Source of the DNA: Anabaena sp. UHCC 0204
Lineage (GTDB): Bacteria > Cyanobacteriota > Cyanobacteriia > Cyanobacteriales > Nostocaceae
Direction of reading: 5' to 3'
DNA: 64,000 bases
Assembly (NCBI RefSeq): GCF_009711975.1
Contig: NZ_VIKW01000005.1
Location: 136,825-200,824, forward strand
The notes beneath the pieces were generated by a model, which saw only the letters and a list, made by a program, of their open reading frames with translations, had not been told where the DNA came from and made no database searches. Position numbers and translations under genes: made by a program. Shown here one piece after another: positions 570 through 22,369 of the stretch (positions within the stretch are counted from its first letter, which is position 1; each line of letters starts with the position of its first letter).

Positions 570-670
570 AATAAATATTTCCCCTGCTCCCTTGCTATGA
601 TCACAACAGCTTATTAGCTCTAGTTGCTAGTTATCCCATAAACTATATAACTAGCAACTTGGGTAATAAC

Positions 671-1564
671 ATGATTAATGATACGGAGTATATCAGGAAA
701 GCTGAAGCTAATCGCGTAGAAGTTCTCAGCGAAGCACTACCTTACATTCAACAATTCGCCGGTCGTACCGTTGTTGTTAAATACGGTGGCGCAGCAATGA
801 AGGATAGCACCCTCAAGGATAAAGTTATTCGTGATGTGGTCTTTTTATCTTGTGTCGGCTTGCGGCCAATTTTAGTCCATGGTGGTGGACCAGAAATTAA
901 TAGTTGGTTAGGTAAGCTGGGAATTGAAGCACAATTTAAAAATGGTTTGCGCGTAACTGATGCGGATACAATGGATGTAGTCGAGATGGTGTTAGTTGGG
1001 CGTGTGAATAAAGAAATTGTGGAACTGATTAATCAAGCTGGAGGGATGGCTGTAGGACTTTGCGGTAAAGATGGTAACTTAATTACGGCTCGTCCTCAAG
1101 GTGATGAAGGGATTGGTTTTGTTGGGGAAGTTAGTAATGTCAATATCAAAATTTTAGAAACACTTTCTAGTAATGGCTATATTCCCGTAGTTTCTAGCGT
1201 TGCGGCTGATGAGACTGGACAGGCTTATAATATTAATGCTGATACTGTAGCGGGAGAAATAGCCGCAGCTTTAGGTGCAGAAAAGTTAATTTTGCTGACT
1301 GATACTAGAGGTATTCTCAAAGATTATAAAGATCCATCTACCTTAATTCCCAAGGTAGATATTCGGGAAGCGCGGCAATTAATTGCTGATGGTATAGTCA
1401 GTGGAGGGATGATTCCTAAAGTGAATTGTTGTGTGCGATCGCTCGCTCAAGGTGTTAAAGCCTCACATATCATTGATGGCCGCATTCCTCACGCTTTATT
1501 ATTAGAAGTGTTTACAGATGTGGGGATTGGAACAATGATTCTTAGTTCTCAATTTCGACAATAA
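671..1564 (+). CDS. argB: acetylglutamate kinase ArgB
   Basis: N-acetyl-L-glutamate kinase (297 aa), the second and PII-controlled step of arginine synthesis in the cytoplasm: ATP plus N-acetylglutamate gives N-acetylglutamyl phosphate. The amino-acid-kinase fold is marked by VVKYGGAAM near the N-terminus, VHGGGPEI, the [11 protein letters not shown] segment and GGMIPKV near the C-terminus. Length fits the family. ATG at 671 is chosen over an upstream in-frame TTG at 659, which would add only four residues. It stands alone between an FHA gene and a TPR protein. Arginine is a precursor of cyanophycin in nitrogen-fixing cyanobacteria. Confidence 0.96.
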
Positions 1565-12633: not shown

Positions 12634-15600
12634 ATGAGCAAAAGCAATATCTGTGCAATTACTATTCCTGGTTATAAAATTACTGAACTCATCTATGCTA
12701 GTGAAAAAACTACAGTTTATCGTGGTGAACAAGAAAAAAACCAGACTCCAGTTATTATCAAAATTCTCAACTCACAATATCCCCGGTTGCAGGATTTAAT
12801 TGCTTTTAAAAATCAGTTTGCTATTAGTCAACAAATTGATCATCCAAATATTATTAAATGTTATGGTTTAGAAAAATATGGCAATAGTTATGCTCTGGTT
12901 TTAGAAGATTTTCAAGGTATATCTTTGAGTGAATATGCTAATTATCAAAGTTTAGATTTAATCTCTTTTTTACCCATTGCGATCGCAATTACCAAAGCTT
13001 TAGAATTCCTATATGATCATAAAATTATTCACAAAGATATTAAGCCTAAAAATATTACAATTAATTCTCAAACGCAGCAAATTAAGCTGATAGATTTTAG
13101 TATTTCTTCCCTATTACCCAAAGAAACTGCGGATATCAAAAACCCAGAAGTGTTAGCAGGGACACTTACTTATATGTCTCCTGAACAAACAGGAAGAATG
13201 AATAGAGGGATAGATTACCGCACAGATTTTTATTCTTTGGGAGTGACTTTTTATGAATTACTCACCGGAAAATTACCTTTTTATAGTCAAAATCATTTAG
13301 AATTGGTATATTGTCATCTTGCAAAAGAACCGATTAATCCTAGAGAAATTAATCCACAAATTCCGCCAATTATGGCAGATATGATTTTGAAATTAATGGC
13401 AAAAAACCCTGATGAAAGATATCAAACAGCCAGAGGAATTAGACATGATTTAGAAATATGTCAACAAATGTTATTAATGCAGGGAGAAATTAGTAATTTT
13501 AAATTAGCAGAAAAAGATATATGCGATCGCTTTTTGATTCCAGAAAAGCTTTATGGTAGAGAACAGGAAATTATTACCTTACTAAATACTTTTAAAAATG
13601 TCAGTGCTGGGAATACAGAATTAATGTTAGTAGCAGGTTTTTCTGGTATTGGTAAAACTGCTGTTGTTAATGAAGTTCATAAACCAATTGTGCGGGAAAA
13701 AGGTTACTTTATTTCTGGTAAATATGATCAATTCCAACGAAATATTCCTTTTTCGGCCTTATTACAAGCATTTCGTAGTTTCATGACACAACTCCTCACT
13801 GAAAATACAAATCAGTTAGAAGACTGGAAAATGAAAATTTTATCAGCATTAGGAGAACAAGGAAAGGTAATTATTGATGTTATCCCTGAACTAGAAAATA
13901 TTATTGGCCAACAACCGTCAGTTCCAGAACTGACAGGTAATGCTTCCGAAAATCGCTTTAATTTACTATTTGGTAAATTTATTCAGATATTCGCTACTAG
14001 TGAACATCCATTAGTAATTTTCTTAGATGATTTACAATGGGCTGATATAGCTTCTTTGAAATTAATCAAATTATTAATGAGTGCAAAAGACACCAAATAT
14101 TTATTATTAATTGGAGCATATAGAGATAATGAAGTCAAGCCCGGACACCCTTTAGTCATGACTTTAGATGATATTCGACAAGCGAATGTCACCGTTCATG
14201 AAATCAGGTTACAACCTTTAGATAAATCCCATCTGCGGCTATTAATTACAGATACTCTAATTTGTTCAGAAGCACATACTGAATCTCTCATTGAATTACT
14301 TTTAAAGACAACTCAAGGGAATCCATTTTTTACAAATCAATTATTAAAATCACTGCATGAAGATGGATTAATTGTTTTTAATTCTAGTCTAGGTTATTGG
14401 AAGTGTGATATTAATGCAGCCAAAGCTTTATATCATAATGAAGATGTTGTTAATTTTCTAAAAAACCAGTTAAAGAAATTATCTAAAAATACTCAAAATA
14501 TCTTAAAAGTAGCTGCTTGTATTGGTAATAAATTTGATTTATATACTTTGTCTATAGTCTGCGAAAAATCCCAAATCCAAATAGCATCTGAGTTATGGAA
14601 TGCTTTACAAGAAGAATTAATTATCTCTCAAAATGAAGTTTATAAATTTTTTACAGATGATGAAGAATCATCATTAAATATTTTTGACTCAAATTTAACA
14701 GCTAATAGTAATGAATCAATTATAGTTCAATATAAATTTCTTCATGATAGAGTTCAGCAAGCAGCTTATTCATTAATTTCTGATGAAGATAAACCAGCAA
14801 CACACTTAAAAATAGGTCAATTGCTGTTAAAAGATAGCAGTTCTGAGGAAGGGGAAGAAAAGATATTTGAGATAGTTAATCAGTTAAATATGGGGATAAA
14901 ATTAATTTCCAATCAGTTAGATAGATATGAATTAGCTAAATTAAACTTAATTGCTGGTTGTAAAGCTAAATCTTCAACTGCTTATGAAGCTGCTGTCAGA
15001 TATTTAAAAGTAGGTTTAGAACTTTTAGCAGCAGATAGTTGGGAATATCAGTATGAATTAACTTTAAATCTTTATATTGAAGCTGTAGAAGCAGAATATT
15101 TAAACATTAATTTTGAGCAAGCAGAAATATATATAGAAGCAGTTAAGCAAAATGCTAATAGTCTGATTGATCAAGTAAAAGTGTATGAAGCACAAATACA
15201 AATATATATGGCTCAAGTGCAAATACAACAAGCAATTGAGACAGGTTTAACTTTAGTAAACTTGCTGGGAGTGAATTTAGAAACAACACCTCCACTTAAC
15301 TTAAATGTTGATGATTTAATCAACTTACCGGAGATGATAGCTGCTGATAAACTTGCTGTCATGCGGATTTTAACTAATATGACTGCTGCTAGTTATTTTG
15401 TTGATCCAAAACTATTTCCAGCTATTATATTTACAATGATTCATCTATCTGTGAAATATGGTAATTCTCCATTTTCTGCTCATGGATATGTGAATTATGG
15501 TTTATTATTGTGCGGTTTCTTTGCGGATATTGAAACTGGATACCGTTATGGTGAATTGGCTTTAAGTATATTAGATAAATTTGATGCTAGAAGTATTGAA

Positions 15601-18048
15601 TGCCGAGTTTTAGTGATGTGGAATAGTAATATTCTCCCTTGGAAACAACATTTGCGAAAAACAATAACTAGTTTACAAGAGGGTTTACAAAGTGGAATGG
15701 AAACTGGAGATATAGAATACTTTGGTTACTGTTGTGCAATGTATGATATAAATATGCTCCTTAGTGGTAAAAATTTATCTTATCTATTTGAGAATTTAAA
15801 AAATCATATCCTTTTAATGTATAGCATCAAGCAAGAAGGCACAGTGCTGCTTCATAAAATATGGTATCAGCTAGTTTTTAATTTTTCAGAAATTAATGAA
15901 AATAAACAAATATTTGATGGTGATATTTTTGATGAATCAGAATTATTACCAATTCTTATAGAAACTCAAGCTTCCACCACACTCTTTTCATTATATTTAG
16001 CAAAAACCATATATTATTACTTCTTTGGTTTCACAAATATTGCTGTTGATAATTCCATCAAAGGTGGAGAATATTTGCAATTTGTTGTTGGACAAGTGAC
16101 AATTAGTCAATATAATTTTTACTATTCTTTATCACTTTTAGCTGAATATCCTTATCAGTCTGCAAGTGAACAAAAACGATTTTTAGAAAAAATTCTATCT
16201 AATCAAGAACAAATGAAAAATTGGGCTAATTACGCCCCCATGAATTATCAACATAAATATGAATTGGTAGAAGCAGAAAAAGCCAGAGTATTAGGAAATA
16301 ATTGGCAAGCAATGGAGCTTTATGATCAAGCAATTGCGGGAGCTAAGGAAAATAAATATATTCAAGAGGAAGCACTAGCTAATGAACTAGCAGCTAAATT
16401 TTACCTGGGTTGTAATAAAGAAAAAATTGCTAAAGCTTACTTAATAGATGCTTATTATTGTTATGCTAATTGGGGAGCGAAGGTAAAAATTGAAAATTTG
16501 GAAACAACCTATCCTCAATTACTTGAACCTATCATTAATCAAACAAAAACTAAATTAACAGAAGGTGAAGTAAGTACCCTTATTAGTAAACCTAGTTTGA
16601 CAGGTGTTTCTGCATTATTAGATTTAGAAACTGTGACTAAAGCCTCTTTAGCAATTTCTTCAGAAATTCAGATAGACAAGTTATTACATACTCTCATGCA
16701 GATGATATCAGAAAATGTTGCTGCTAATAAATCTGCGTTAATTTTGCAAAAAGAGGGAAATTTAGTCTTGGTAGCTCAATGTATAAATGAGCATGAATAT
16801 GAATTATCGAATACACCAATTAACAATTGTCAATATTTACCTTTAAGTATTATTAATTATGTTGCTCATACGCAAAAATATTTGCTAATTAGCAATGTCA
16901 AAGATTCTCCAGAATTTGCTCATGATTTATATATTATTCAATATCAACCAAAATCTATCCTCTGTACTCCTATTTTGAATAAAGGGGAATTAATCGGTAT
17001 CATTTATTTAGAGAACAATCTAACTGTAGGAGCTTTTACCACTGAAAGATTGAGAATATTAAATTTGCTATCTTCCCAAGCTGCTATTTCTCTAGAAAAT
17101 GCTCAACTCTATAGGAGTTTAGAGGAAAAAGTTACACAAAGAACTCAGGAATTAAATGAAAAGAATCAGCATTTAGAAGAAGCAATGTATGAATTAAAAA
17201 CCACACAATCTCAACTTATTCAAACAGAGAAAATGTCCAGTTTAGGACAAATGGTTGCAGGTATTGCCCATGAAATTAATAATCCGGTAAATTTTATCTA
17301 TGCTAATGTTGAACACGCCAGCAATTATATTGAATTTATGATCAATATGCTGAATATATATCAACAGGAATATCCTCATCCTTCAGCTATTATTGAAAAC
17401 TATAAAAAAGAGCATGATTTTGATTTTATCATGCAAGATTTACCGAAAATTCTCAATTCAATGATGGTAGGTTCAGAACGAATTCGCAAGATAGTTTTAG
17501 GTTTACGTAATTTTTCTCGTCTTGATGAATCAGCCATGAAACCTGTAGATATCCATGAAGGAATTGATAGTACATTAATGATTTTACAACCTCGATTCCA
17601 AGAAAAATTAGGCTATTCTAATCAGATAGTAATTAAAAATTATGGTGATATTCCCTTAGTTCAATGTTATGCTTCCCAATTGAACCAGGTATTTATGAAT
17701 ATCATTAGTAATGCAATTGATGTTCTGAAACAGCAGCAGGAAAATTCATCTCAAGTAGAACAAAAAAATAATTCTAGCCAAATTATGATTAGTACCCAAG
17801 TTGTTAATGATAATTGGGTACAAATTGCCATTAAAGATAATGGTATGGGCATAAATCCCGAAGTTAGACAACGCATATTTGATCCTTTTTTCACCACCAA
17901 ACCTGTAGGAGAAGGAACAGGTTTAGGATTATCAATTAGTTATCAAATCATCGTAGATAAACACGGTGGTAAATTAGATTGTATTTCTGCACCCGGAAAA
18001 GGAACAGAATTTATCATTGAAATTCCCATTAAACTACATCAACAATAA
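12634..18048 (+). CDS. Ser/Thr kinase - ATPase - GAF - histidine kinase fusion
   Basis: 1804 aa signalling giant. Order: Ser/Thr protein kinase domain (about 10-280; catalytic loop HKDIKPKN at residue 133), AAA/STAND-like ATPase with Walker A GFSGIGKT (about 335-342) and a FLDDLQWAD Walker B, a long helical TPR-like region (about 700-1320), a GAF domain (about 1345-1500), a coiled coil, then HisKA with GIAHEINNP (His1546) and a HATPase with NGMGIN and GTGLGLSIS. In the kinase the DFG triad reads DFS (LIDFSISSL). This architecture is known in filamentous cyanobacteria and some other multicellular bacteria. Stimulus and partners cannot be read. Expression stands alone; it converges with the DUF1611 gene. 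Confidence 0.93.
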   Translation: MSKSNICAITIPGYKITELIYASEKTTVYRGEQEKNQTPVIIKILNSQYPRLQDLIAFKNQFAISQQIDHPNIIKCYGLEKYGNSYALVLEDFQGISLSEYANYQSLDLISFLPIAIAITKALEFLYDHKIIHKDIKPKNITINSQTQQIKLIDFSISSLLPKETADIKNPEVLAGTLTYMSPEQTGRMNRGIDYRTDFYSLGVTFYELLTGKLPFYSQNHLELVYCHLAKEPINPREINPQIPPIMADMILKLMAKNPDERYQTARGIRHDLEICQQMLLMQGEISNFKLAEKDICDRFLIPEKLYGREQEIITLLNTFKNVSAGNTELMLVAGFSGIGKTAVVNEVHKPIVREKGYFISGKYDQFQRNIPFSALLQAFRSFMTQLLTENTNQLEDWKMKILSALGEQGKVIIDVIPELENIIGQQPSVPELTGNASENRFNLLFGKFIQIFATSEHPLVIFLDDLQWADIASLKLIKLLMSAKDTKYLLLIGAYRDNEVKPGHPLVMTLDDIRQANVTVHEIRLQPLDKSHLRLLITDTLICSEAHTESLIELLLKTTQGNPFFTNQLLKSLHEDGLIVFNSSLGYWKCDINAAKALYHNEDVVNFLKNQLKKLSKNTQNILKVAACIGNKFDLYTLSIVCEKSQIQIASELWNALQEELIISQNEVYKFFTDDEESSLNIFDSNLTANSNESIIVQYKFLHDRVQQAAYSLISDEDKPATHLKIGQLLLKDSSSEEGEEKIFEIVNQLNMGIKLISNQLDRYELAKLNLIAGCKAKSSTAYEAAVRYLKVGLELLAADSWEYQYELTLNLYIEAVEAEYLNINFEQAEIYIEAVKQNANSLIDQVKVYEAQIQIYMAQVQIQQAIETGLTLVNLLGVNLETTPPLNLNVDDLINLPEMIAADKLAVMRILTNMTAASYFVDPKLFPAIIFTMIHLSVKYGNSPFSAHGYVNYGLLLCGFFADIETGYRYGELALSILDKFDARSIECRVLVMWNSNILPWKQHLRKTITSLQEGLQSGMETGDIEYFGYCCAMYDINMLLSGKNLSYLFENLKNHILLMYSIKQEGTVLLHKIWYQLVFNFSEINENKQIFDGDIFDESELLPILIETQASTTLFSLYLAKTIYYYFFGFTNIAVDNSIKGGEYLQFVVGQVTISQYNFYYSLSLLAEYPYQSASEQKRFLEKILSNQEQMKNWANYAPMNYQHKYELVEAEKARVLGNNWQAMELYDQAIAGAKENKYIQEEALANELAAKFYLGCNKEKIAKAYLIDAYYCYANWGAKVKIENLETTYPQLLEPIINQTKTKLTEGEVSTLISKPSLTGVSALLDLETVTKASLAISSEIQIDKLLHTLMQMISENVAANKSALILQKEGNLVLVAQCINEHEYELSNTPINNCQYLPLSIINYVAHTQKYLLISNVKDSPEFAHDLYIIQYQPKSILCTPILNKGELIGIIYLENNLTVGAFTTERLRILNLLSSQAAISLENAQLYRSLEEKVTQRTQELNEKNQHLEEAMYELKTTQSQLIQTEKMSSLGQMVAGIAHEINNPVNFIYANVEHASNYIEFMINMLNIYQQEYPHPSAIIENYKKEHDFDFIMQDLPKILNSMMVGSERIRKIVLGLRNFSRLDESAMKPVDIHEGIDSTLMILQPRFQEKLGYSNQIVIKNYGDIPLVQCYASQLNQVFMNIISNAIDVLKQQQENSSQVEQKNNSSQIMISTQVVNDNWVQIAIKDNGMGINPEVRQRIFDPFFTTKPVGEGTGLGLSISYQIIVDKHGGKLDCISAPGKGTEFIIEIPIKLHQQ

Positions 18049-18099: not shown

Positions 18100-19146
18100 C
18101 TAACTTTGCATAACAGCATCCAATAGTAACCCAGCCCCAAAACGGATAGGATCTGTGCAAGGTAGTTTAGTTTCTGCTATGATTTGAGCGATCGCATTTT
18201 TTGCCTCTACTTCCTCTAAATTCTTCGTATTCAACGCTATCCCCACCACAGGAACGTGCTTAAAAGCACCAGCAGCACTAGCCACAATTTCATACATCCG
18301 AATTACTTCCGGTAAAGGTGGAATCGGGATAGTGGGATTATTACGGTTATGAGTTTGTCCTGCTTGATGCACTAATATTAAATGTGTGGGTTGAGAACCC
18401 CGAATTAAAGGTAAAGTTGCCGTCGAGCCAGGGTGTAAAAGAGAACCTTGCCCTTCAATTTGCAGAATATCGTAATGTTGACCAAAACGCATTACCAACT
18501 GTTCTACAGCACCAGCCGCAAAGTCCACCCGCACAGCATCTAAAGCTACCCCTTCCCCTTCCAACATTAACCCAGTTTGACCGGTAGCCAAAAACTTAGA
18601 ACGTAAACCCCGCAACTTAGCCGCCCGGTGTAATTCCAGACTGGTGGACATTTTTCCAATCGCCATATCTGTCCCCACAGTCAAAACCCGCCGACAGGCC
18701 AGAGTTCGCGCCATTGCTGATGCTACATCTAAATTAGCTGGTTCTCTGCGGACATCCCAAATTAATTGTCCTGGTTTAAGGAGGGCGGTTAATTCCGGTA
18801 TATTTGCCATTGGTGTATGTAATCCATTTACCAAAGACATTCCCGCTTTCAGGGCATCTTTGATATCAGACCAATAATTATTCGGTACAGCACCACCTTT
18901 AGGCGCAATTCCAATTACTAAAACGTCTGGATTGTACTGTAGTGCTGCTGTTACAGATGCCACAATTGGCACATCTCGCTGAATACCTGTTAATTCTCCT
19001 AAACTTTTACCAACAGATTCTTGATCAATCACCGCGACAATTTGAGATTCACTGTAACGTAAAATTGATAAACCCGTCTTTCCCTGCAATCCTGTAATTC
19101 CTTCATGGAGAAGAATGGCTACTTTTTGATTAAGCGACAAACGCAC
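18100..19146 (-). CDS. DUF1611 protein, DgcN-like
   Basis: 348 aa. DUF1611 proteins have an N-terminal Rossmann-like domain (KVAILLHEGITGLQGKTGL) and a C-terminal P-loop-like domain (VLTVGTDMAIGKMSTSLEL). A characterised branch, DgcN, acetylates D-glutamate and works with the racemase DgcA to form N-acetyl-L-glutamate. Here the gene overlaps by 17 bases with an epimerase of the DgcA type just upstream in the same operon, which supports this reading. Other possible roles exist, since the family was long listed as unknown or NAD-dependent. LHTPMANIPEL and HQAGQTHNRN are conserved-looking blocks. Substrate is inferred from neighbours. Confidence 0.8.
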   Translation of the reverse strand: MRLSLNQKVAILLHEGITGLQGKTGLSILRYSESQIVAVIDQESVGKSLGELTGIQRDVPIVASVTAALQYNPDVLVIGIAPKGGAVPNNYWSDIKDALKAGMSLVNGLHTPMANIPELTALLKPGQLIWDVRREPANLDVASAMARTLACRRVLTVGTDMAIGKMSTSLELHRAAKLRGLRSKFLATGQTGLMLEGEGVALDAVRVDFAAGAVEQLVMRFGQHYDILQIEGQGSLLHPGSTATLPLIRGSQPTHLILVHQAGQTHNRNNPTIPIPPLPEVIRMYEIVASAAGAFKHVPVVGIALNTKNLEEVEAKNAIAQIIAETKLPCTDPIRFGAGLLLDAVMQS

Positions 19147-20182
19147 TATGTTTCACTCCCAAACCAGGTAAATTATTCGGTAAAACTCGCCCATTTTCTA
19201 CGACTGCACCAGTAAAAGGATCATCAATTAAATTTAAGTGACTGTCTAAATCCAAATAATCAGCTAGTGGTGCAAGTTGTAATGCGGCGGTATTAGCCAG
19301 AGAACTATCAGAATAACAGCCAAACATGACTTGTAAATTATGGGCTTTGGCTGTATGCACCATTCTCATAGCCTGGGTTATACCCCCAGATTTCATTAAC
19401 TTGATATTAATTCCATCTACATGATCTGCTAATTGGGGAATATCAGCACTGGTAAAACAACTTTCATCCACAAAAATTGGTAACGGGGAATTTTTTTGCA
19501 AATTAGCTAAATTTGCTTCTTCACCTCTGGCTAGAGGTTGTTCTACATACTTTATCCCTAAGTCAGCTAACCAACCACACATATTTATAGCATCCGCCAA
19601 ACTCCAACCACCATTAGCGTCAACAAACACATCTTTTCCTGCGGCTGCTTCCCATACCGCTAACAACATTTTTTGATCTGCTTCTATTCCCTCGGTTGAA
19701 CCTAATTTTACTTTTAATAACTGCACATCCATAAATTGTAACCAGTCTTGCGTCCTGGCCTTTGCACCTGCTGGGGAATTAATACCAATTGTTACAGAAG
19801 TGGGAGCGATCGCATTTTTATCTAGTCCCCAAAGTTTCCACAATGGTAAATCCACCCGCTTACCCAACCAATCATGTAATGCCATATCCACAGCCGCTTT
19901 AACGGCGGAAGGAATTTGCATTCGTTCTAATACTGCCTCAATTTCTTGCCGTTGCCAAGGGCTAAATTTTTGTAAAATCGGTGTAATTTGCTGCAAACCC
20001 TCTTGGATTTTCTCAGTAGATTGCCTATGGTTGCCCACACCAAAAGGAGATGCTTCTCCCCAACCCACAATTCCCTCTTGGGCAATTTGTAACCAGATAT
20101 TTGTCGTTTGTGCTGTTGTCCCTCTACTAATGGTTAAGGGAAATCGCTTGTTAACGGTAAAGCTTTGAAAATTTATTTGCAT
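19130..20182 (-). CDS. enolase-superfamily epimerase (dipeptide epimerase / DgcA-like)
   Basis: 350 aa. A muconate-lactonising-type enolase-superfamily enzyme: the KVKLG catalytic Lys segment, DANGGW with a metal-binding Asp, the EQP motif, and VDESCFTSADIP and GINIKLMKSGG in the barrel. Relatives are L-Ala-D/L-Glu epimerases that recycle peptidoglycan peptides; the DgcA branch racemises N-acetyl-D-glutamate. Overlap with the DUF1611 gene favours the second role, but sequence alone does not separate them. It is the first gene of a two-gene operon; an array of GTCAGTT heptamers lies just upstream. Confidence 0.87.
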   Translation of the reverse strand: MQINFQSFTVNKRFPLTISRGTTAQTTNIWLQIAQEGIVGWGEASPFGVGNHRQSTEKIQEGLQQITPILQKFSPWQRQEIEAVLERMQIPSAVKAAVDMALHDWLGKRVDLPLWKLWGLDKNAIAPTSVTIGINSPAGAKARTQDWLQFMDVQLLKVKLGSTEGIEADQKMLLAVWEAAAGKDVFVDANGGWSLADAINMCGWLADLGIKYVEQPLARGEEANLANLQKNSPLPIFVDESCFTSADIPQLADHVDGINIKLMKSGGITQAMRMVHTAKAHNLQVMFGCYSDSSLANTAALQLAPLADYLDLDSHLNLIDDPFTGAVVENGRVLPNNLPGLGVKHSAFVA

Positions 20183-20190
20183 AAATATAT

Positions 20191-20330
20191 AGTTGTCAGT
20201 GGTCAGTGGTCAGTGGTCAGTTGTCCGTTGTCAGTTGTCAGTTGTCAGTTGTCAGTTGTCAGTTGTCAATTGTCCGTTGTTCGTTGTCAGTTATCAGTTG
20301 TCCGTTGTCAATTGTCAATTGTCAATTGTT
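20191..20330. repeat. heptamer tandem array (GTCAGTT)n
   Basis: About 140 bases of imperfect head-to-tail heptamers, GTCAGTT with variants GTCAGTG, GTCCGTT and GTCAATT, upstream of the epimerase and before ftsH. Complement of the array at 8246-8311. Confidence 0.93.
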
Positions 20331-20482: not shown

Positions 20483-22369
20483 ATGAGAAATTTCGACAAA
20501 AAAGGTCTAATGAACCAGCGTCATGTTTTAACTGGAGTTGTAGCGGCTGGGTTGATGATGTTGCCGGGAGCATTCGGTAGTAGTTCTGCATTAGCGCAGC
20601 AAAAAACAGAGCGTAACACTTTAAGCTATGGAGAATTAATCCAGAAGGCTGATAAAGGGGAAATTAAAAAGGTAGAGTTGGATCAAGTTGAGCAGACAGC
20701 TAGGGTTTATTTAGCTGGACAAAAGCCAGATACACCTCCTTTACAGGTACGACTTTTAAATCAAAATCCGGAGTTAATTAATAAACTTAAAGAAAAAAAC
20801 GTTGATTTTGGCGAAGTTTCCTCTGCTGGTAATAGAGCCGCTGTTGGGTTGTTAATCAATCTAATGTGGATTTTACCACTGGTGGCTTTAATGCTGTTGT
20901 TCCTGCGTCGTTCAGCAAATGCTTCTAACCAAGCTATGAGTTTCGGTAAATCTCGCGCTCGGTTTCAAATGGAAGCAAAAACGGGGGTGAAATTTGATGA
21001 TGTCGCTGGAGTCCAAGAAGCAAAAGAAGAATTACAAGAAGTTGTTACCTTCCTAAAACAGCCAGAAAAATTTACGGCTGTGGGAGCAAAAATTCCCAAA
21101 GGTGTGCTGTTAGTTGGACCGCCGGGAACTGGGAAAACTTTACTCGCAAAAGCGATCGCCGGTGAAGCAGGTGTACCATTTTTCAGTATGTCTGGTTCGG
21201 AATTTGTAGAAATGTTTGTCGGTGTGGGCGCTTCCCGTGTCCGTGACTTGTTCAAAAAAGCTAAAGATAATGCTCCTTGTTTGATCTTTATTGATGAAAT
21301 TGACGCAGTAGGTAGACAACGGGGTGCTGGTATTGGTGGTGGTAATGATGAACGGGAACAAACCCTCAACCAACTATTAACAGAAATGGATGGTTTTGAA
21401 GGGAATACGGGAATTATTATTATTGCTGCTACTAACCGCCCAGATGTCCTAGATTCAGCTTTGTTACGTCCCGGACGCTTTGATAGACAGGTGATTGTGG
21501 ATGTCCCAGATTTGAAAGGAAGACAGGATATTTTGACAGTCCATGCTCAAAATAAGAAGATTGATCCTACTGTATCCTTAGAAGCGATCGCTCGCAGAAC
21601 TCCTGGTTTTACTGGCGCAGATTTAGCTAATTTACTCAACGAAGCTGCTATTCTCACAGCCAGAAGACGCAAAGAAGCTGTTACCGATTTAGAAATTGAT
21701 AATGCCATAGATAGAGTAGTTGCCGGTATGGAAGGAACTGCTTTAGTAGATAGCAAAAATAAACGCCTGATTGCTTACCACGAAGTCGGACACGCTTTGG
21801 TAGGTACTTTAGTCAAAGGTCATGATCCTGTACAAAAAGTTACTCTTATTCCTAGAGGACAAGCATTAGGTTTAACTTGGTTTACTCCCAATGAAGAACA
21901 AGGTTTAATTTCCCGTTCCCAAATTTTAGCCCGAATTGCCGCTGCTTTGGGCGGTCGGGCAGCAGAAGAAATCGTCTTTGGGAAAGCGGAAGTTACCACA
22001 GGTGCAGGAAATGACTTACAACAAGTTACCAATATGGCACGACAAATGGTAACTAAATTTGGGATGTCTGATTTGGGTCCGGTTTCTTTGGAAAATCAAA
22101 ATAATGAGGTATTTTTAGGGCGTGACTGGATGAATAAATCAGAATATTCTGAGGAAATCGCCGCTAAAATTGATGCCACAGTCAGGGAAATTATTAACCG
22201 CAGCTATGTTCAAGCTAAGGAACTACTACAAGAAAACCGTTTAATTTTAGAGCGTGTTGTAGATTTGCTCATAGAACAAGAAACCATTGATGGTGATGTG
22301 TTCCGGACAATTGTCGCTGACTACTCTAAACTCCAAGTCACTAATGAGCAGGTAGCCGTACCTTATTAG
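20483..22369 (+). CDS. ftsH: ATP-dependent zinc metalloprotease FtsH
   Basis: 628 aa membrane protease that removes damaged membrane proteins (in cyanobacteria including photosystem II D1) and some soluble substrates. Two N-terminal membrane segments (about 13-32 and 115-135) enclose a lumenal domain, then the AAA module with Walker A GPPGTGKT (212-219), Walker [12 protein letters not shown] and the second region of homology, and the zinc site HEVGH (433-437). Length is normal. The N-terminus ([12 protein letters not shown]...ALAQQ) is typical of thylakoid FtsH. Cyanobacteria have several ftsH paralogues; which one this is I cannot say. Confidence 0.96.

Follow-up and report, generated by a model that had tools for sequence, protein, structure and literature searches.

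A DUF1611 gene and an enolase-superfamily epimerase gene overlap on the minus strand of a 64,000-nucleotide stretch of DNA from Anabaena sp. UHCC 0204 (the whole stretch analysed, referred to here as the window), and the locus raises the question of what reaction two such proteins carry out together in a cyanobacterium. Yu et al. 2023 reportedly described a DgcN-DgcA pathway in marine Proteobacteria and haloarchaea, in which D-glutamate (D-Glu) is said to be acetylated and the product flipped to the L-form. The initial annotation had proposed a DgcN-DgcA-like route of this kind for the window pair, with its product feeding ArgB, arginine and cyanophycin. No literature on a DUF1611-epimerase pair in cyanobacteria was found among open-licence papers. 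In a trench metagenome, dgcN has been reported from 32 class-level clades; the word 'cyanobacteria' is absent from the main text of that article (PMC12363236).

Table 1 Features of the window that bear on the gene pair.
Feature	Position	Strand	Remark
Enolase-superfamily (MR/MLE) epimerase/racemase gene, DgcA/YcjG-like	19130..20182	-	350 aa, ATG start; gene 1 of the unit
DUF1611 gene, DgcN-like	18100..19146	-	348 aa, GTG start; gene 2 of the unit
Overlap of the epimerase and DUF1611 genes	19130..19146	-	17 bases
Multi-domain kinase gene	12634-18048	+	flanks the pair
ftsH-type gene	20483-22369	+	flanks the pair; divergent from the epimerase gene
argB, acetylglutamate kinase	659..1564	+	metabolic context, outside the unit
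AGTTGTC tandem array	20191-20329		just upstream of the epimerase gene

The overlap described in the initial annotation was confirmed, with both minus-strand open reading frames lying at exactly the coordinates in Table 1. The DUF1611 protein comprises an N-terminal Rossmann-like domain and a C-terminal P-loop domain, and it matched PF17396 (95.9 bits) and PF07755 (249.7 bits); the epimerase matched PF02746 (56.5 bits) and PF13378 (127.2 bits), and all of these scores are above the respective cut-offs. The GTG start of the DUF1611 gene fits the solved structure 2obn, as the alignment begins at the corresponding methionine of 2obn. Spacing between the epimerase and DUF1611 genes was identical in nine of nine sampled genomes of the genus, and the two genes are probably co-transcribed. 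The flanks of the pair in the window hold the multi-domain kinase, FtsH, a 128-aa open reading frame and DNA polymerase III gamma/tau, and no transporter, regulator or deacetylase gene adjoins the pair. The heptamer array, of 19.9 copies, occupies the intergenic space common to the epimerase gene and the divergent ftsH-type gene.

A sample of 244 genomes from the phylum was searched for DUF1611 and for the window epimerase. DUF1611 was found in 72 genomes and the epimerase in 73, and 71 genomes carried both (Fisher p 4e-58, with kinship ignored). The single-gene genomes were G211, whose only DUF1611 gene is of a second, Orr-linked type described below, and G047 and G053, which hold a distant epimerase only. 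Six genomes with weak partial PF07755 matches alone (G130, G131, G142, G154, G172 and G182) were scored as DUF1611-negative, and the counts also leave out a weak third hit in G105 and a second piece in G174. Genes were called linked when they shared contig and strand and less than 5 kb separated the DUF1611 domain match from the epimerase (largest gap, 2406). By this definition the pair was linked in 66 of the 71 two-gene genomes, with the epimerase gene first in 61 and the DUF1611 gene first in five, all from one family (f37); both genes were retained but unlinked in five of the 71. The pair was absent from 173 of the 244 genomes, and from 48 of the 114 in the window's own class. In G174 (C1:2888875-2889475) the DUF1611 match is split in two and the second piece contains an internal TGA, while the adjoining epimerase gene is free of stops.

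Named genomes from across the phyla were scanned with a ten-row DUF1611 alignment, the first row of which came from another class of the phylum, and 80 of the 569 matches were kept as loci. In 53 of these 80 listed loci (of 569) an epimerase gene was encoded on the same strand no more than 1.5 kb away. Listed loci with an adjacent pair came from Cyanobacteriota, Bacteroidota, Planctomycetota, Actinomycetota, Vulcanimicrobiota, Verrucomicrobiota, Pseudomonadota and Halobacteria, so that among the loci listed the unit recurs in other phyla, in either gene order. Whole genomes were searched for the epimerase for the 27 non-adjacent listed loci and three adjacent controls, all of them DUF1611 carriers. 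A match was obtained in 28 of these 30 genomes, including 25 of the 27 non-adjacent ones (24 at E 1e-46 or better); the two genomes without a match were those of L115 and L140. Each of the eight cyanobacterial genomes of this set has the epimerase, at 58-75% identity. Few neighbours beyond the two genes recurred in the operons of the 80 listed loci, in nine of which the rough ORF caller had missed the DUF1611 gene. DUF1611, epimerase and M20 amidohydrolase genes are consecutive in a planctomycete (L100, 4986-8326), the sole case with an M20 gene, and this cluster is a possible complete route from D-Glu to L-Glu. Across 45 adjacent pairs the identities of the two proteins were correlated (r 0.94; none of 1000 permutations exceeded 0.24), and host kinship alone would raise r too. 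The pair is a co-inherited functional unit, far beyond chance.

Comparison with curated models pointed to DgcN and DgcA at scores short of family membership. The best NCBIfam model of the DUF1611 protein was DgcN (NF041892; 239.2 bits against a cut-off of 480, not reached) and that of the epimerase was DgcA (NF042940; 214.5 bits against 400, not reached). The dipeptide-epimerase models NF041118 and NF011708 gave 149.6 bits (cut-off 500) and 147.2 bits (cut-off 343) on the window epimerase, again too low for membership, and the order of these model scores favours DgcA over the dipeptide epimerases. Because the DgcA model matched 12 of 14 control genomes, only one of them above the cut-off, a sub-cut-off match to DgcA means little alone.

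Quick trees with SH-aLRT support only were made from selected rows (72 for the epimerase, 73 for DUF1611). They included five reference DgcN/DgcA pairs, four annotated and one, from Tritonibacter (L070), unannotated and 99.3% identical to the 7xrj segment. The main groups were common to both trees, with the cyanobacteria next to a mixed group of Bacteroidota, a gammaproteobacterium (L113), an alphaproteobacterium (L147) and a verrucomicrobium (L171); since this mixed group defies species relationships in both trees, it suggests that the two genes move together. In these quick trees the window epimerase fell outside the reference DgcA clade, in a clade of its own with other cyanobacteria, and the window DUF1611 protein fell outside the reference DgcN clade, a nine-row clade on a stem of 1.57 changes per column. 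YcjG from a Citrobacter plasmid (L209) was nested inside the clade of five DgcAs (L063, L064, L070, L208 and L213), with a support of 91 within a clade of 100, so a label taken over from the nearest neighbour may confuse the functions of YcjG and DgcA. As a result of the sub-cut-off scores, the separate clades and the position of YcjG, sequence does not separate N-acetyl-D-Glu from L-Ala-D-Glu as the substrate.

The fold of the DUF1611 protein was searched with its AlphaFold model (pLDDT 95.5). Matches were 2obn (Z 52.8), 2g0t (Z 36.9) and 7xrj (Z 35.6; rmsd 4.0, 329 residues), the last of which is titled N-acetyltransferase DgcN-25328. The original paper on DgcN is said to have assigned the enzyme to the GNAT superfamily; GNAT membership is not shown by the listed fold matches of the DUF1611 model.

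The active site of the window epimerase is complete, with the catalytic residues K157, K159, D188, E214, D239 and K264, and it also holds Arg20 and a DxD motif (D311-L-D313). The loop with Arg20 reads ISRG in the window protein and in all five reference DgcAs and IARG in YcjG; the same loop reads ATYS in 3iji, IALG in 3jva and ISLG in 3q45, none of which has Arg20. Arg20 was present in 45 of 47 DUF1611-linked epimerases, the exceptions being L067 and L093, and in 15 of 25 others (72 rows). In dipeptide epimerases the arginine of this loop contacts the Glu side chain, and Arg20 would favour a Glu-type substrate while being silent on the nitrogen substituent. The DxD motif, presumably the contact for the free amino group of the dipeptide, was found in all 72 epimerase rows; as DgcA has it too, it was ruled out as a discriminator between dipeptide and N-acetyl substrates. 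At the haloarchaeal locus L067 (3758-5877) the epimerase beside DUF1611 belongs to a different subfamily and has no Arg20; enolase-type racemases may have joined DUF1611 on more than one occasion.

A second type of DUF1611 gene was found in six of the 244 phylum genomes, and in all six it adjoins an Orr-like gene. For five of these six cyanobacterial neighbours the ornithine racemase Orr was the only NCBIfam match, below the cut-off, and the sixth (L219) was recognised by phmmer. The same arrangement is seen on two Vibrio plasmids (L069 and L071) in addition to the cyanobacterial loci L085, L086, L087, L088, L089 and L219; all eight Orr-like open reading frames adjoin a second-type DUF1611 gene, in loci that had been picked because they contain DUF1611 or the epimerase. 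As a family, DUF1611 seems to accompany amino-acid racemases generally.

Four alignment positions of DUF1611 follow this division. Rows linked to the epimerase carry D208 (39/39), A213 (38/39), T307 (36/39) and R335 (36/39, with Lys335 in the other three), and the reference DgcN rows carry D208 (5/5), A213 (4/5), T307 (5/5) and R335 (5/5). All seven Orr-linked rows have Q208, E213 and H307 and no Arg335. The window protein has D208, A213, T307 and R335, as DgcN does. At these positions, known from the alignment, loss of an arginine and gain of a glutamate would suit a substrate that has changed from an acidic amino acid to a basic one. The proposed Glu code does not hold throughout, since L067 and L093 lack Arg20 and Arg335 is missing from the epimerase-linked L067 protein, which has D335, and from the plasmid proteins L066, L068 and L211, which have no adjoining epimerase; the unlinked row L148 also has E213. 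Joint loss of Arg20 and Arg335 in L067 may mark yet another substrate. These exceptions (L067, L093, L066, L068 and L211) leave the odds of the readings unchanged, because the window protein has the shared residues. On a broader view, which we hold as a possible but doubtful one, DUF1611 would be a general family of D-amino-acid N-acyltransferases, each with its own racemase (enolase-type for Glu, Orr-type and PLP-dependent for ornithine or a like amino acid), and the cyanobacterial Glu pair would form a side entrance from cell-wall D-Glu through N-acetyl-L-Glu into arginine.

For the window we consider it fairly probable that the pair acetylates and racemises D-Glu, as a DgcN-DgcA-like two-step unit of a separate lineage. 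The DUF1611 protein would block the amino group of D-Glu with an acetyl group from acetyl-CoA. At the metal site of the epimerase, the KxK lysine and the second catalytic lysine would take off and return the alpha-proton, which is the established mechanism of the enolase superfamily, and N-acetyl-D-Glu would be equilibrated with N-acetyl-L-Glu. The flow would run from the D- to the L-form, and the N-acetyl-L-Glu could then serve as substrate for ArgB or lose its acetyl group to an M20 amidohydrolase. The DgcN-DgcA identity proposed in the initial annotation stood in part. It agrees with the top NCBIfam models, the fold shared by the DUF1611 protein and 7xrj, and the co-inherited unit; it is at odds with scores at about half of the cut-offs, a position outside the reference clades, YcjG within the DgcA clade and a DxD motif that is common to DgcA. 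The exceptions to the Glu code, the Asp/Glu racemase family protein of the own genome and the lack of a transporter, regulator or deacetylase gene next to the pair also weigh against the D-Glu reading. It is the best available reading when it is understood as a pair that works like DgcN and DgcA.

Alternatively, the epimerase could be a true L-Ala-D/L-Glu epimerase of murein-peptide recycling, with DUF1611 catalysing a different reaction on that peptide or on the D-Glu released from it. The nearest solved epimerase, 3iji (203 bits), is nearly identical to a Bacteroides finegoldii protein (L207) that adjoins a C40 peptidase gene, and YcjG, which adjoins mpaA, nests with DgcA and has Arg20. DxD is kept in the window epimerase, the organism's own genome has two matches to Peptidase_S66 (the LD-carboxypeptidase family) above the cut-off, and a D-Ala-D-Ala ligase gene is present within the same 8-kb stretch at two of three picocyanobacterial loci (L077, 6138-7265; L078, 283-1335; not seen in L092). 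However, no murein peptidase gene (mpaA or C40) is among the genes flanking the window pair, the epimerase has DUF1611 as its partner in 66 of 71 genomes, 3iji lacks Arg20, and the dipeptide-epimerase models (150 and 147 bits) fall below DgcA (214 bits). On these grounds we judge murein recycling unlikely.

The remaining alternatives concern what the DUF1611 protein does. It could follow the same two-step logic with another substrate, D-Asp or another acidic D-amino acid, or with another acyl group; members beside Orr-like genes imply that amino-acid specificity may change within the family, but the reference D-Glu proteins share both Arg20 (epimerase) and R335 (DUF1611), and we regard this variant as improbable. 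The P-loop domain also counts against the D-Glu reading, as it is akin to ATP-dependent enzymes such as dethiobiotin synthetase. After 2obn, 2g0t and 7xrj, the C-terminal domain next resembles MinD, ParA-type proteins, cobyrinic acid a,c-diamide synthase and dethiobiotin synthetase (Z 13-14; Foldseek, VIA-align), and a protein of the dethiobiotin-synthetase kind would use ATP, as a ligase or kinase, to activate the Glu carboxylate or couple it, with the epimerase acting on the product. Against such a function, which is very improbable in our view, the P-loop lysine is followed by Met, Lys or Arg and never by Ser/Thr in all 73 DUF1611 rows, a pattern that would fit the binding of a CoA phosphate better than Mg-ATP chemistry, and 7xrj, of the same fold, is titled an N-acetyltransferase.

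If the pair does make N-acetyl-L-Glu from D-Glu, the genome offers several fates for it. ArgB, on which the initial annotation had relied, is indeed present in the window some 17 kb from the pair and scored above the cut-off (290.6 bits against 151.3). The own genome also has ArgJ above the cut-off (493 bits) and no ArgA above the cut-off, the 147-bit ArgA match being the window ArgB and the second match reaching 26.9 bits. Because ArgB and ArgJ are present and no ArgA exceeds the cut-off, N-acetyl-L-Glu made here could enter arginine synthesis; such a role would be optional, given the 173 genomes of the phylum and 48 of the own class without the pair. The route into arginine that had been suggested is thus a possible one and not a requirement of the phylum. 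For Synechocystis, a passage of PMC7133116 describes no ArgA or ArgE and a bifunctional ArgJ instead. Two full-length M20 amidohydrolases in the own genome matched TIGR01891 above the cut-off, a third M20 match reached 27 bits, and no ArgE model was among the matches of the own M20 proteins at E 1e-30. The own genome encodes one Asp/Glu racemase family protein, presumably MurI, which could return D-Glu to L-Glu without acetylation.

The special link to cyanophycin drawn in the initial annotation was rejected. Once picocyanobacteria were set aside from the class, the share of genomes with CphA above the cut-off did not differ between those that have the pair (55 of 58) and those that lack it (30 of 33; p 0.66). 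Over all 244 genomes, 55 had both, 16 the pair only, 38 CphA only and 135 neither (p 7e-16), a correlation that, read without a species tree, is taken as kinship; the corresponding counts for the window's class were 55, 11, 30 and 18 (p 0.016). No CphA above the cut-off was present in 16 of the 71 pair genomes.

Were the D-Glu reading true, the DgcN-DgcA route would have a distinct cyanobacterial branch with the gene order reversed, and some of the existing 'dipeptide epimerase' annotations would be mistaken. The structure 2obn, solved in 2007 without a function, would gain one, and DUF1611 would have its explanation in a partnership with amino-acid racemases, its choice of amino acid being set by a code that can be tested.

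Among known systems, the DgcN-DgcA pathway resembles the window pair in both protein families, in adjacency, co-inheritance and catalytic residues, and in the fold that the window DUF1611 protein shares with 7xrj. It differs in gene order, which is dgcN before dgcA in the pathway and epimerase before DUF1611 in the window. Identity of the window proteins to three plasmid DgcN-DgcA pairs is 28-33% for the epimerase and 34-35% for DUF1611. An aminotransferase, ABC transporter or LysR gene adjoins the DgcN-DgcA loci L063, L064 and L208, whereas none of these lies beside the window pair. The L-Ala-D/L-Glu epimerases YcjG and YkfB share the KxK motif, the DxD motif and the catalytic lysine with the window epimerase; Arg20 is also shared by YcjG, to which that comparison is limited because the YkfB row begins inside the Arg20 loop. 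YcjG adjoins mpaA, whereas the window epimerase adjoins DUF1611. Orr-linked DUF1611 genes resemble the window gene in adjoining an amino-acid racemase gene, but that racemase is, by its annotation, PLP-dependent and of another family, and the DUF1611 protein there has Q208, E213 and H307 and no R335. The solved protein 2obn, deposited as a DUF1611 family protein under a title without a function, is Ava_3511 of Anabaena variabilis; it is 78% identical over its full length to the window DUF1611 protein and is the same protein in a relative.
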